Part shown: positions 43,756 to 49,086 of the stretch, one piece after another
Layout: each line of letters begins with the position of its first letter
How positions within the stretch are numbered: the first letter of the stretch is position 1
Assembly: GCA_020072585.1 (NCBI GenBank)
Contig: JAIQGL010000014.1
Coordinates: forward strand, 62,001-126,000
Length of the DNA stretch: 64,000 nt
Source: Terriglobia bacterium
GTDB lineage: Bacteria > Acidobacteriota > Terriglobia > Terriglobales > Acidobacteriaceae
Direction of reading: 5' to 3'
Position numbers and translations under genes: made by a program
The notes under the pieces: generated by a model
Told to the model about the DNA's origin: nothing
What the model saw: the letters and a program-made list of their open reading frames with translations, nothing else
Databases searched by the model: none

Positions 43756-43910
43756 CCACTTTCGTATTTCGATAAAGTCAACGAAATTTTCAAAATCTCT
43801 CCTTCCCGTTTTGAAACAGCTCTGGATTTTTATTTACGATTTTTCAACTCTCACTACTACCCGCCGCCGTAATATTGACCTCTTCTTATTCGCATGGAGC
43901 GAATCACAAG

Positions 43911-44549
43911 ATGCCTATGCCGGGCGAAAGCGTCTCTTCCGCGGACCGCCACAACAGCGCTGAACCCTTGCCGCTGTTCCGTCCGGAAGCGCTCGCCGCA
44001 CAGCAGCAAAAGTTTCACGGCGAGATCATTCTTATCCGCCCTTTTTCTCTCATGTTGCTGGGTTGGTTCGCCATCGGCATTACAACTGCGGTCCTGGGAT
44101 TTTTTCTGCTTGGCCAGTACACCGAGAAAGCACACGTGCCCGGCATGATCACTTCCGGCCGTATCTCAGGCGCGTCTGCTCCTCGGCTTGAGGCGGATTT
44201 CTATGTGCCTGGCTCTTTGATCGGCCGGCTACGCCCCGGCAACCAGCTCACCCTGCGTTGCGAAAAGTGCTCCACGCCTTTCGCACAACAAGTGGGAACT
44301 GTTCTGGAAGTTCCAGCTGCGCCGCTGGGCCCTGCTGAACTTTCTCAGATGAATTTGGCCCTGGCCGAGCCAGTAGACATTCCGGTTGACAAAATCCCGG
44401 TTTACAAAATCAAGGTGTCGCTCCCGCCACAGACGGCACGGATCTCGCAACTCAACTCTTCGCCGCAAATGGGAACCAGAATGGAAGCCGACATCCCGCT
44501 GGGGCGTAAACCTCTAATCAAGTGGTTCTTCGATCGGTCTGGAAGCTGA
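43911..44549 (+). CDS. Short HlyD-like membrane fusion protein (apparently lacks the lipoyl/coiled-coil insert)
   Basis: N-term TM then LGQYTEKAHVPGMI followed directly by LEADFYVPGSLIGRLRPGNQLTLRCEKCSTPFAQQVGTVLEVPAAPLGPAEL, typical of the C-terminal barrel of CvaA/HlyD-type proteins. Confidence 0.7.
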   Translation: MPMPGESVSSADRHNSAEPLPLFRPEALAAQQQKFHGEIILIRPFSLMLLGWFAIGITTAVLGFFLLGQYTEKAHVPGMITSGRISGASAPRLEADFYVPGSLIGRLRPGNQLTLRCEKCSTPFAQQVGTVLEVPAAPLGPAELSQMNLALAEPVDIPVDKIPVYKIKVSLPPQTARISQLNSSPQMGTRMEADIPLGRKPLIKWFFDRSGS

Positions 44550-44580: not shown

Positions 44581-46731
44581 ATGAAATTCTCCTGGGGACA
44601 GAAACTACCGTTGGTCTTTCAGACTGAAGCGGCGGAGTGTGGTCTGGCGTGCCTGGCGATGATCGCAGGCTATCACGGCGCGCAAATTGACCTGGCGGCC
44701 CTCCGGCAGCGCTTCTCCGTGTCGCTTCGCGGCGCAACGCTGAACCACATCATCAAGTTCGCCGCTGCTCTTGATCTCACCGGACGTCCGCTCCGTGTAG
44801 AGCTTGAAGACCTGGCCTGGCTGAAGACCCCTTGCATCCTGCACTGGAAAATGGACCACTTCGTGGTGCTGAGGAAGGTCACCCGGAAACACATCTATCT
44901 GCATGATCCTTCCATGGGCCCGCGCCGGATGAGCTTCGCCGAAGCGAGCCGCCATTTCACCGGCGTTGCGCTGGAGCTCACGCCCACGCCCAGTTTTGCG
45001 CCCCGCGATGAGCGCCGCCCGCTCCGTCTGCGTGATCTGATTGGCCGTGTCGTCGGCCTTAAACGCGCGCTCGGACAGATCTTTGCCCTTGCCGCTGCTC
45101 TGGAGTTGTTCTCCATCATTAGCCCCTTGTTCCTGCAGCTCACGGTGGACAAGGTCCTGGCCTCCTTCGATCACAATCTGCTCCTCACGCTGGGCCTAGG
45201 CTTCATGCTGCTGATCGCCCTGCAATCCCTCCTGGGAGCATTGCGAAGCTGGACAACTCTGTACTTTGGCATATCACTCAAGCTGCAGTGGTATGCCAAT
45301 CTCTTTTCGCACCTGGTCCGTCTTCCGGTCTCGTTTTTTGAAAAACGATATTTCGGTGACATCCTCTCGCGCTTTGACGGCGCGGAGGCCATCCAGCGCA
45401 CTCTGACCAACAACTTTATTGAAGCGATTCTTGACGGCCTGATCTCTATCTTCGTCCTCGCGGTCATGTTCATCTATAGTCCGAAGCTGGCCTTGATCGT
45501 CATTGTCAGCGTCTTGCTCTATGTTGCTCTGCGCAACCTCGCCTATGCTCCTTTGCGGAGATCCACGGAAGAGCAGATCTTGCGTCTTTCCAAACAGCAG
45601 GGTTATCTGATTGAGACGCTCCGTGGCATTCGCACCATCAAGGTCCTTGGCCGTGAAGACAGCCGTAAAACCCGATGGATGAATCTTCTTGCGGACTCGA
45701 CCAACGCCCAGGTTGCCGCGGAAAAACTCTCGCTGCTCTTCAAGGCCGCGAACGGACTAATTTTTGGTCTGCAATCGGTAGCTGTCGTCTGGATGGGCGC
45801 GACATTGGTCCTGGGGGGGAAATTCAGCGTCGGTATGCTGTTTGCTTTCGTTGCTTATCAGGAGCAGTTCAAGGCCCGCATCACGAATCTGGTAGACCGC
45901 CTCTTTGATTTCCGCATGCTCTCGCTGCAGGTCCATCGCCTTGCGGACGTGGTTCTTGAGAAGCCCGAATCCTCCGTCGATGAATCTGCCGGCTCCCTGG
46001 AAGACGCCTCCATCCAGGTGCAGCACCTCTTCTTCCGTTACTCAGATACAGAACCGTGGCTGCTGGAAGATGTCACCTTGAGCATCGCGCCGGGCGAGTG
46101 TGTGGCCGTTGTTGGCCCTTCAGGCACGGGAAAATCGACGCTTCTCAAATTAATGGCGGGGCTGCTGAAGCCACAATCGGGCGATGTGATCGTGAACGGG
46201 CATTCCGTGTGCGCCAGCCGCGCCGCCGTTCTGGGAAACGTAGGGTTTGTTTTGCAGGACGATTGTCTCTTTGCCGGGACCATCGCTGACAACATCGCCT
46301 TCTCCGCTGACATTGCGGACATGTCCCGCGTTGCGGAGTGCGCCCGGCTCGCCTGCCTGGACGATGAGATCCATGCGATGCACATGGGCTACAACACCCT
46401 GATCGGTGATATGGGCTCAGCCCTTTCTGGAGGCCAGCAGCAGCGTCTTCTGCTGGCCCGCGCTCTTTATCAGCGGCCGTCCATCCTGATCCTGGATGAG
46501 GCCACCAGCCATCTCGACGTTCCCACGGAGCAGCGTATCGCCGCCATGCTGGCTGAACTGTGCATGACGCGCGTCTTCGCAGCCCATCGGCCCGACACAA
46601 TCAGGATTGCTGACCGCGTCATCACTCTGTCGCGTTCAGGAAAAATTTCAGAGCAGCCGGCTTCACTGCGCGCCGTTCCCGCAGCCGGCACAAGACTTTA
46701 CCGAGGAGAAAGCTATGCCCAACCAAAATGA
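44581..46731 (+). CDS. Peptidase-containing ABC transporter (C39 peptidase, TM domain and ATPase)
   Basis: C39: QTEAAECGLACLAMIAGYHG, DHFVVL, YLHDPSMGPRRM; ATPase: GPSGTGKSTLLKL, LSGGQQQRLLLARAL, ILILDEATSHLD. Confidence 0.95.
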   Translation: MKFSWGQKLPLVFQTEAAECGLACLAMIAGYHGAQIDLAALRQRFSVSLRGATLNHIIKFAAALDLTGRPLRVELEDLAWLKTPCILHWKMDHFVVLRKVTRKHIYLHDPSMGPRRMSFAEASRHFTGVALELTPTPSFAPRDERRPLRLRDLIGRVVGLKRALGQIFALAAALELFSIISPLFLQLTVDKVLASFDHNLLLTLGLGFMLLIALQSLLGALRSWTTLYFGISLKLQWYANLFSHLVRLPVSFFEKRYFGDILSRFDGAEAIQRTLTNNFIEAILDGLISIFVLAVMFIYSPKLALIVIVSVLLYVALRNLAYAPLRRSTEEQILRLSKQQGYLIETLRGIRTIKVLGREDSRKTRWMNLLADSTNAQVAAEKLSLLFKAANGLIFGLQSVAVVWMGATLVLGGKFSVGMLFAFVAYQEQFKARITNLVDRLFDFRMLSLQVHRLADVVLEKPESSVDESAGSLEDASIQVQHLFFRYSDTEPWLLEDVTLSIAPGECVAVVGPSGTGKSTLLKLMAGLLKPQSGDVIVNGHSVCASRAAVLGNVGFVLQDDCLFAGTIADNIAFSADIADMSRVAECARLACLDDEIHAMHMGYNTLIGDMGSALSGGQQQRLLLARALYQRPSILILDEATSHLDVPTEQRIAAMLAELCMTRVFAAHRPDTIRIADRVITLSRSGKISEQPASLRAVPAAGTRLYRGESYAQPK

Positions 46732-46876
46732 CGCCAATCGGGTGCTCAACCGCATGGGTGCTCGCGAGTTAACACAGGAAGAAATCGAAAGCGTAAGCGC
46801 CGCCGGGCCACCGTGCCGGCTGACGTTCACGCACCTGCCCGGCGGAAGCTCTGACGAAGATACCGTATGTCCATAA
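46715..46876 (+). CDS. Putative RiPP precursor peptide 1
   Basis: MPNQNDANRVLNRMGARELTQEEIESVSAAGPPCRLTFTHLPGGSSDEDTVCP; start overlaps the PCAT stop by 17 bp. Confidence 0.8.
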   Translation: MPNQNDANRVLNRMGARELTQEEIESVSAAGPPCRLTFTHLPGGSSDEDTVCP

Positions 46877-46981
46877 ACCGGGGATGCGGGCAGGCGAACA
46901 GATGTAACGCCAAGTGGCTGGACAAAACTATTTTTTGAAGAGCTTGGGCCGTTCAACGGACCCATGAAAGGAGAAAAAAAT

Positions 46982-47137
46982 ATGAATAACCAGAACAGAG
47001 TGTTGATTCGCAGAGGCGCTCGTGAGTTGACACCGACAGAAACTGAACTTGTGAATGGGGGAATTCTTACTCTTTCACTCTGCACCGCCGCTCCTTCTCC
47101 GGATGGGGATCAACATGTCGGTGAACTCGGCTGCTAA
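46982..47137 (+). CDS. Putative RiPP precursor peptide 2
   Basis: MNNQNRVLIRRGARELTPTETELVNGGILTLSLCTAAPSPDGDQHVGELGC; AAAGGAG upstream. Confidence 0.85.
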   Translation: MNNQNRVLIRRGARELTPTETELVNGGILTLSLCTAAPSPDGDQHVGELGC

Positions 47138-47206
47138 GCGCTAAAAACTCTTCTGAGAGCTTGGGGCCGCTTCAACGGAACCAAAATTGACGAAAAGGAG
47201 AAAAGC

Positions 47207-47359
47207 ATGAATGACCAGAACAGAGTGTTGGTCCGCAGAGGCGCTCGCAATCTGAACGAAAAAGAGATCGAGCAAGTGAGCGGAGGTCTACGCACTGATA
47301 CCGTTTGCACCTTCGGTCCCAATGGCAATGACGGCGACACTTTCCTGCATGAGTGTTGA
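47207..47359 (+). CDS. Putative RiPP precursor peptide 3
   Basis: MNDQNRVLVRRGARNLNEKEIEQVSGGLRTDTVCTFGPNGNDGDTFLHEC; AAAAGGAG upstream. Confidence 0.87.
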   Translation: MNDQNRVLVRRGARNLNEKEIEQVSGGLRTDTVCTFGPNGNDGDTFLHEC

Positions 47360-47367
47360 ATTTTATC

Positions 47368-47397
47368 CGGTGGCGCCATGCGGCGTCGCCGTTTTTT
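47368..47397 (+). terminator. Rho-independent terminator/attenuator after precursor peptide 3
   Basis: CGGTGGCGCC-ATGC-GGCGTCGCCG, 10-bp stem (two G-U pairs), followed by TTTTTT. Confidence 0.8.
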
Positions 47398-47470
47398 AAA
47401 TGACCGGGCTTGCTTTCCCGGCGCATTTTGAGGTTGGCATTTTACAAACAATCAAAAAAGGAGAAACGTA

Positions 47471-47623
47471 ATGGACCAGGACAATCGTGTACTTACCCGC
47501 AGAGGCGCCCGTGAGTTGAATGAGCAGGAAGTCCAGAAAGTGAGCGGGGGAATCAGAACGCTGACCTTGTGTACTAACGAAGGTGGCGTCCGCGATGGAG
47601 ATACCTTCCTCGGCGAATGCTGA
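47471..47623 (+). CDS. Putative RiPP precursor peptide 4
   Basis: MDQDNRVLTRRGARELNEQEVQKVSGGIRTLTLCTNEGGVRDGDTFLGEC; AAAAAAGGAG upstream. Confidence 0.87.
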   Translation: MDQDNRVLTRRGARELNEQEVQKVSGGIRTLTLCTNEGGVRDGDTFLGEC

Positions 47624-47630
47624 TCGGAAA

Positions 47631-47656
47631 GCGGAGGCGCCTTCGGGAGCCTCCGC
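47631..47656. other. GC-rich hairpin after precursor peptide 4
   Basis: GCGGAGGC-GCC-TTCG-GGA-GCCTCCGC: perfect 8-bp outer stem, UUCG-type loop; no T-run. Confidence 0.7.
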
Positions 47657-47745
47657 TTCCTGGATATATAACACGAAGACATACAACACGAAGATACAAA
47701 CGGAAAATCGTATGGCTGTTTTTCTATACAGCCTGGGAGGAAATA

Positions 47746-47916
47746 ATGAAAGAAGAAAATCGCGTACTGAGTCGCAGAGGCGCTCGTGAACTATCGGAAC
47801 AGGAAATAGAAGCCGTCACCGGCGCTCTCAAGATCATACGTCACACGTTGACGCCGTGTTTCATCGATAGCAAACAGCAGTTGCTCAACGGAGACCAGGC
47901 AATCGGCGAGTGCTGA
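47746..47916 (+). CDS. Putative RiPP precursor peptide 5
   Basis: MKEENRVLSRRGARELSEQEIEAVTGALKIIRHTLTPCFIDSKQQLLNGDQAIGEC; GGGAGG upstream. Confidence 0.82.
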   Translation: MKEENRVLSRRGARELSEQEIEAVTGALKIIRHTLTPCFIDSKQQLLNGDQAIGEC

Positions 47917-47991: not shown

Positions 47992-49086
47992 ATGAAACTC
48001 ATAGTTTTAGCGCCGGAAGATGATAACCACACAGCCCCCATCAAGTGGGCGCTGGAAAAAGCAGGCCATCGCGTGGTTTGCTGGGCCGGACTCACCTGGA
48101 TGGAAGACGGCCAGGCCTCACTGTTGATCGGTGACAATGACACGCTTGTTCTCGGCGCGCACTCTGTTGATCCTGGTGATGTGATCTGGGTCCGCCGCCC
48201 GGAGCCGCCTCTTCCCAATCCTAAGACATCAGAGCCCGACAAGAAATTTGCCGCTCTCGAATACCGGTCCTTCTATCATTCTATCGCCTATTTTCTGGAA
48301 ACCCTGCCGGTGTGGTGCATCAACAGGTATTCCGCTGCCCGGGTAATGGTCCAGAAGGCCGTGCAGATACGCCTGGCCCGCAAGTGCGGTCTCAAAGTAC
48401 CCGCCACCCTCATGTCCAATGCTCCTGCAACCGTCAAAGAATTTTTTGAGCGGGAGAATAGCAGAAATATCTGCAAAGGCTTCACTCCACATGTATGGCA
48501 GAAGGAAGGAAAAATGACCGTGGCCATTACAGAGACTTTTGAGCTGACGCGCAGCCAGCTGCCCAGCGATGAAGTCCTGACCTATGCGCCCGCAATCTAC
48601 CAGGAACGTGTTCCCAAAGAGTTTGACGTGCGCATGGTGCTCATGGGAAACCAGATTTATTCCTACGCTCTCATCAACAAGAAGCAGGCGCTGGATTGGC
48701 GGCAGGATGCAGGCTTAGGTCACGTCGCGGCGGAACGCATTCCCACCCCGCCTGAGGTCGAAAAGGGTGTACTTGAGTTCGCCCGGCAGTCCGGACTTTG
48801 CTTTGGCTCGCTCGACTTCGGCGTGGATGCGAAAGGAGATTGGTGGTTCCTGGAAATCAATGAAGAAGGACAGTTTCTCTGGCTGGACCAGTTCAGTCCT
48901 GACGCCAGGCTGCTGGAAAAGTTCTGCGCGTTCGTCACTGCTCCCCAGGGCTCAACCGCGCCGCTGGAAGAGCGCGAGCACCTCTTCCCTTCTCTGCGCG
49001 AGTATGAAGACTACGTCACTGGACGGGAGATGCCGGAACCTACGCGCCCCCGTACTGAAGACCCATTTCTTTCCATGGAGGCGTAG
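47992..49086 (+). CDS. ATP-grasp protein, MvdC/MvdD (graspetide synthetase)-like
   Basis: KEFDVRMVLMGNQIYSYALINKKQALDWR; LCFGSLDFGVDAKGDWWFLEINEEGQFLWLDQFSPDARLLEKF; directly downstream of the five peptides. Confidence 0.8.
   Translation: MKLIVLAPEDDNHTAPIKWALEKAGHRVVCWAGLTWMEDGQASLLIGDNDTLVLGAHSVDPGDVIWVRRPEPPLPNPKTSEPDKKFAALEYRSFYHSIAYFLETLPVWCINRYSAARVMVQKAVQIRLARKCGLKVPATLMSNAPATVKEFFERENSRNICKGFTPHVWQKEGKMTVAITETFELTRSQLPSDEVLTYAPAIYQERVPKEFDVRMVLMGNQIYSYALINKKQALDWRQDAGLGHVAAERIPTPPEVEKGVLEFARQSGLCFGSLDFGVDAKGDWWFLEINEEGQFLWLDQFSPDARLLEKFCAFVTAPQGSTAPLEEREHLFPSLREYEDYVTGREMPEPTRPRTEDPFLSMEA

Follow-up and report, generated by a model that had tools for sequence, protein, structure and literature searches.

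Among the graspetides, the microviridins are recognised by the core motif TxKYPSD. Published graspetides comprise 24 plus 19 core groups (PMC13097080), and neither Acidobacteria nor a core of the form TxTxCT...DGD...EC is named in the main texts of that paper and of PMC8939145, the group consensus tables being placed in supplements. The open literature searched yielded no account of a disulfide occurring naturally in a graspetide product. A cysteine of the ThfA precursor was exchanged in order to avoid disulfides (PMC13003496), while sponge knottins possess both disulfides and a Ser-Glu ester, with no grasp enzyme having been found in the sponge transcriptome (PMC13418204).

The locus described here lies in a stretch of 64,000 nucleotides (the window) on contig C48 of the 6.9 Mb genome of an Acidobacteriaceae bacterium, assembled in 74 contigs (G000). 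An array of five precursor genes (46715 to 47916) was found to be flanked by the gene of a C39-peptidase exporter (44581 to 46731) on one side and that of an ATP-grasp ligase (47992 to 49086) on the other. The locus as a whole is probably a graspetide cluster, whose cores would carry esters around a variable loop, be exported by the C39 system and gain a disulfide outside the cytoplasm. The features are as follows:

43875 to 44549, forward strand: small membrane-fusion-protein-like gene (224 amino acids), probably a partner of the exporter.
44581 to 46731, forward strand: C39-peptidase ABC exporter (716 amino acids), assigned by Pfam domains.
46715 to 46876, forward strand: precursor P1, core PPCRLTFTHLPGGSSDEDTVCP, overlapping the end of the exporter gene; from translation, with orthologues in L003 and L050.
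46982 to 47137, forward strand: precursor P2, core ILTLSLCTAAPSPDGDQHVGELGC; from translation, with orthologues in L003 and L050.
47207 to 47359, forward strand: precursor P3, core LRTDTVCTFGPNGNDGDTFLHEC; from translation and precursor model (E 2e-28, a self-match, P3 being a row of the model).
47471 to 47623, forward strand: precursor P4, core IRTLTLCTNEGGVRDGDTFLGEC; from translation and precursor model (E 1.8e-26, likewise a self-match of a model row).
47746 to 47916, forward strand: precursor P5, core LKIIRHTLTPCFIDSKQQLLNGDQAIGEC; from translation, with orthologues in L003 and L050.
47992 to 49086, forward strand: ATP-grasp graspetide synthetase (364 amino acids), assigned by NCBIfam and PDB profile matches.

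The exporter was found to match Peptidase_C39 (9.1e-35), ABC_membrane (1e-41) and ABC_tran (3.9e-31) of Pfam, its best NCBIfam model being TIGR03796 (NHLM_micro_ABC1) at 508.6 bits, below the cut-off of 853. It is expected to cut the leader after a double-glycine site and to export the core. The product of the gene at 43875 to 44549 gave no match in searches of Pfam and NCBIfam; its role as an exporter partner is proposed because of the position of the gene and the single-membrane-anchor appearance of its product. A homologue was identified immediately 5’ of the C39 exporter in L003, L050, L054, L056 and L118.

All five precursors share the leader NRVLxRxGARxLxxxExxxVxGG, and each of their genes is preceded by a purine-rich, GGAG-like ribosome binding site. 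For P2 a longer start option exists at 46964, with the ATG at 46982 being preceded by AAAGGAG. The cores that had been quoted in the initial annotation for P2 to P4, as well as the end of the P5 core (...HTLTPCFIDSKQQLLNGDQAIGEC), agree with the translations, but the range assigned to them (47207 to 47623) contains P3 and P4 only. The motif [IL]xTxTxCT...DGDTFLxEC proposed there likewise holds in its strict form for P3 and P4, whose cores read [IL]RTxTxCT...DGDTFLxEC, and fails for P2, in which the second Thr is replaced by Ser and the core ends in GELGC. The P1 core possesses two Cys, a TxT and three acids in a different order, while in the P5 core Phe replaces the third Thr/Ser and Asn the first Asp.

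A terminator-like stem-loop with a T run was observed at 47368 to 47391 of the window, right after P3 and within the array, and might reduce the expression of downstream genes; three such sites were found against 2.3 expected. A short hairpin (TTGGG..CCGTTCAACGG..CCCAA) was also observed just 5’ of the ribosome binding sites of P2 and P3 (about 46944 to 46970 and 47166 to 47195), and in L003 and L050 the same hairpin precedes those of the majority of precursors. Single-sequence folding of this hairpin gave z values of -0.6 to -2.8, RNAalifold consensus folding on a plain alignment predicted no pairs, and an Rfam search returned no match.

Comparison of P1 and P2 to their orthologues in L003 and L050 showed that 54-60% of synonymous and 9-14% of non-synonymous sites differ, with dN/dS values of 0.12-0.13 for P1 and 0.08-0.10 for P2, similar to that of the ATP-grasp gene (0.13). 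Eight precursor pairs compared between L003 and L050 gave pooled values of 0.27 for pS and 0.027 for pN. For the orthologues tested, the precursors are thus coding genes on which purifying selection acts, with dN/dS of about 0.1. The precursor model matched at E <=1e-3 in 9 of 399 family genomes, which belong to three genera, the best E-value being 1e-25; a phylum-wide search gave only weak matches outside the family, and these are probably due to chance. The precursor motif itself is not a chance occurrence, given dN/dS of 0.08-0.13 and the confinement of model matches to these nine genomes with E-values down to 1e-25.

Comparison of the ligase to NCBIfam models gave scores of 157.8 bits for TIGR04187 (cut-off 350), 127.3 for TIGR04184 (cut-off 475) and 104.8 for TIGR04185 (cut-off 425), all below the curated cut-offs, as was also the case for the ligases of four relatives, and no Pfam family was matched above its cut-off. 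Profile matches to PDB entries were obtained for 5ig9 (4.8e-35), CdnC 7mgv (1.3e-34), AMdnB 7m4s (9.6e-31), 9bou (3.1e-27) and 7drm (1e-12), the last of which we take to be PsnB. The DWR and ExN motifs of the ligase align with those of 5ig9 and CdnC, and residues K162, R214, D235-W236-R237 and E288-x-N290 were found to be invariant in 15 relatives. By homology, the ligase is placed in the graspetide-synthetase family (microviridin/CdnC/PsnB) and outside its named subfamilies. A second, distant ATP-grasp homologue of 28% identity was identified in the same genome (G000:C61:3044-3652; L002, L065).

An Acidobacteriaceae metagenome genome (L003) is the nearest named relative, its ATP-grasp sharing 80% identity with that of the window. 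A scan of contigs across the species gave a single relative. The ligase was identified in seven of the nine genomes of the genus (distant homologues being among these matches) and in a small number of further genomes of the family. From Acidobacteriaceae relatives, 84 leader-bearing precursors were collected. In L003, 11 precursors are intact and one further copy is frameshifted, and L050 possesses 14, all of them lying before one ATP-grasp gene in each case; L054 has five precursors with two ATP-grasp genes, and L120, of another genus, has three precursors with exporter and ligase. The frameshifted copy (L003 4198-4455) corresponds to the L050 8539 precursor and represents decay within the array. 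A minimal set of exporter, precursors and ATP-grasp was found to recur in L003, L050, L054, L056 and L120.

The ligases of the sister clusters L052 and L058 are 53% identical to that of the window, and their cores are Cys-free, with the layout T..S..T..SNPD..D behind the same leader. Each was observed to hold seven such precursors (L052 10086-11649, L058 8871-10329) together with an ATP-grasp gene of its own, and neither stretch contained a homologue of the exporter. Lone leader-bearing precursors were also identified on other contigs, with no ATP-grasp gene in the stretch examined. Two of these belong to the genome of the window, namely L104 4215-4361 (G000:C4), with the core TTGCQGTSLHKNGPIVDVLCDPS, and L105 2634-2837 (G000:C44), with a four-Cys core. 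These two may be modified in trans.

The layout initially described, with Thr/Ser towards the N-terminus of the core and Asp/Glu towards its C-terminus, recurs across the relatives, both in alignment and among the 84 precursors, and the Cys and acidic positions were found to be conserved in this wider comparison, so that the motif finding survives it. A set of 41 non-identical cores was found to fit Thr-x-Thr/Ser-x-Cys-Thr/Ser, a loop of 3-10 residues and Asp/Asn-Gly/Cys-Asp/Glu, a count that is conditional on this pattern as written by the analysts. Both flanks are constant while the loop varies in length, an arrangement that resembles a hairpin or stem-loop graspetide. The initial annotation had cited Thr/Ser/Lys as the linking residues of known graspetides; the choice can be narrowed here, as Lys occurs in 19 of the 41 pattern-fitting cores at no conserved position, and esters rather than lactams would therefore be expected. 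Each core contains two or three donors and two or three acceptors. Cores that retain three Thr/Ser frequently have two acids, so that not every hydroxyl can be esterified.

P5 and its orthologues are without both the third Thr/Ser and the first Asp, which hints at a link between the two. A pairing of these residues on grounds of covariation was rejected, since the L051 714 core is without the first Asp yet keeps the Ser. A hairpin in which all three Thr pair with D, D and E in fully nested fashion was also rejected for the main type, where it is impossible in combination with a disulfide unless crossings are allowed; the L053 9876 and P1 cores might nest. The natural core variation does not reveal the ester connectivity.

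Cysteines are even in number in 81 of the 84 cores, with two in 46, none in 27, four in eight and one in three. When precursors were clustered at 60% identity, an odd count was found in one of 16 Cys-bearing clusters, where random placement of extra Cys would give 8.7 (P = 5e-5), and the same comparison for Cys-bearing clusters at 50% gave P = 0.024, the null being a simple model and the clusters sharing ancestry. Differences in Cys content also occur in pairs. Joint absence was identified in three cases (L056 9577, LLTLTVQT..DGDHSFGA; L050 7758, FNTLSITW..DGDGLLGEA; and the HTNVCT..GDGDGC versus HTNVIT..DGDG family), as was joint excess (L003 4018 with L050 8261; L054 10025; L107 5374). The position of the second Cys is mobile (GEC, GExGC, DGDC, DCD, CDGD and that of P1). 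Leader Cys, which are cut off, follow no parity, with exactly one found in eight precursors. The one exceptional family is FFTNP..DVTTTFCTLASDGDDD, three copies of which in L051 and L055 have a single core Cys.

These observations (even counts, paired differences, a mobile second Cys) favour an additional intramolecular disulfide in the cores. Pairing by itself is also compatible with a graspetide whose Cys both stay reduced, for target recognition or for binding a metal at a site of two Cys and neighbouring acids. This is regarded as unlikely, as free thiols are not likely to persist in an exported peptide and some cores of these arrays (L050 7758, L056) have no Cys at all, from which it also appears that neither synthetase nor exporter needs Cys. 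Both a disulfide and a thioester had been left open by the initial annotation. A native thioester, with the Cys of TxTxCT attacking an activated Asp/Glu instead of or besides Thr, would be in keeping with the ability of graspetide synthetases to form non-native thioesters with another nucleophile (PMC13097080; PMC12291112) and with the single-Cys family of L051 and L055, which has four Asp. However, a thioester needs no second Cys, whereas core Cys occur in twos or fours and are absent in twos, and L050 7758, where the TxTxCT Cys is missing, keeps its two Asp as well as the Glu; on the parity evidence the disulfide option is retained, and the thioester is judged improbable.

Other RiPP chemistry on Cys (lanthionine, sactionine or azoline), besides or instead of that of the ATP-grasp, could draw on the adjacent Cys and Thr, and radical SAM/SPASM enzymes are present in other graspetide clusters (PMC8939145). 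It is considered very unlikely here, no such enzyme or other RiPP tailoring enzyme having been found among the neighbours tested and none of the former recurring in the clusters. That the precursors are unmodified double-glycine bacteriocins beside an unrelated ATP-grasp gene can hardly be maintained, since the resemblance of the leader end to class II bacteriocin leaders amounts to weak TIGR03949 matches and the ATP-grasp gene adjoins the precursors in the relative clusters examined, including those with no exporter homologue nearby (L051-L053, L055, L057-L059).

The case for graspetide identity of the cluster is strong, judged from sequence. The initial reading to this effect is upheld by the neighbouring ligase, an ATP-grasp enzyme of the graspetide-synthetase family, by the exporter with its C39 peptidase, by the double-glycine leader conserved among precursors and by the Thr/Ser-then-Asp/Glu core, whose nucleophile and carboxylate positions are conserved in relatives. 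In the preferred reading of a graspetide with an added disulfide, the ligase would recognise the shared leader, probably by its RVLxRxGAR part, and would use ATP to phosphorylate the side chains of Asp/Glu in DGD...E. Hydroxyls of the Thr/Ser in TxTxCT would then attack the activated acids, so that each core would carry two or three side-chain esters, after which the C39 exporter would cut at the GG/GA site and secrete the core, with the two Cys closing as a disulfide outside the cytoplasm. For the P3 core the calculated [M+H]+ is 2512.087 without modification, 2476.066 after two and 2458.055 after three dehydrations, and for the P4 core 2470.170, 2434.149 and 2416.138, a disulfide lowering each value by 2.016. 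Leader recognition, activation, esterification and leader removal with export are supported by homology, and the disulfide step rests on parity; the cluster contains no recognisable gene for a thiol oxidoreductase. The product may be a protease inhibitor, in analogy to microviridin and plesiocin, or have another secreted role.

It is further possible, as a tentative proposal, that an obligatory disulfide is interlocked with two or three ester rings and that a single synthetase, acting on arrays of up to 14 differing cores and perhaps on precursors elsewhere in the genome, generates a natural peptide library. If this reading is true, disulfides would be added to the few secondary modifications known from graspetides, a synthetase tolerant of very different cores behind one leader would be useful for multicyclic peptide libraries, and natural core variation in the family could help in reading ring connectivity. 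It would also bring an understudied phylum into graspetide work.

Comparison to the microviridins and chryseoviridin (AMdnC 5ig9, AMdnB 7m4s, CdnC 7mgv) showed that the synthetase sequences belong to the same ATP-grasp family (lowest E 5e-35) and that the core likewise has Thr/Ser N-terminal and Asp/Glu C-terminal. Membership of the microviridins (group 1) was considered and rejected, as the leader is NRVLxRxGARxL rather than PFFARFL and the cores possess neither TxKYPSD nor a conserved Lys; furthermore, core Cys are paired here, and each precursor has one core, with many precursors per synthetase. The hairpin and stem-loop graspetides plesiocin (PsnA/PsnB) and fuscimiditide (ThfA/ThfB) share the succession of donor cluster, loop and acceptor cluster (7drm, E 1e-12), but differ in leader and spacing, while the cores of the locus are not repeated and have a Cys pair, and its neighbours include no PIMT methyltransferase. 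Rosaritide (MirA/MirB/MirC/MirD, group 21; PMC13097080) is alike in having a TIGR04187-type synthetase and a TIGR03796-type peptidase exporter beside the precursor, with a different core and with a PPIase partner gene of which no counterpart was seen here. The Cys-conserved graspetide precursors of PMC8939145 also combine an ATP-grasp cluster with core Cys, but in that study the Cys were interpreted as potential thioether donors for enzymes of the radical SAM type; no such enzyme was seen in the present cluster, where the Cys are paired. From these comparisons we infer that the cluster represents a variant within the graspetides, with the predicted disulfide as its variant feature.
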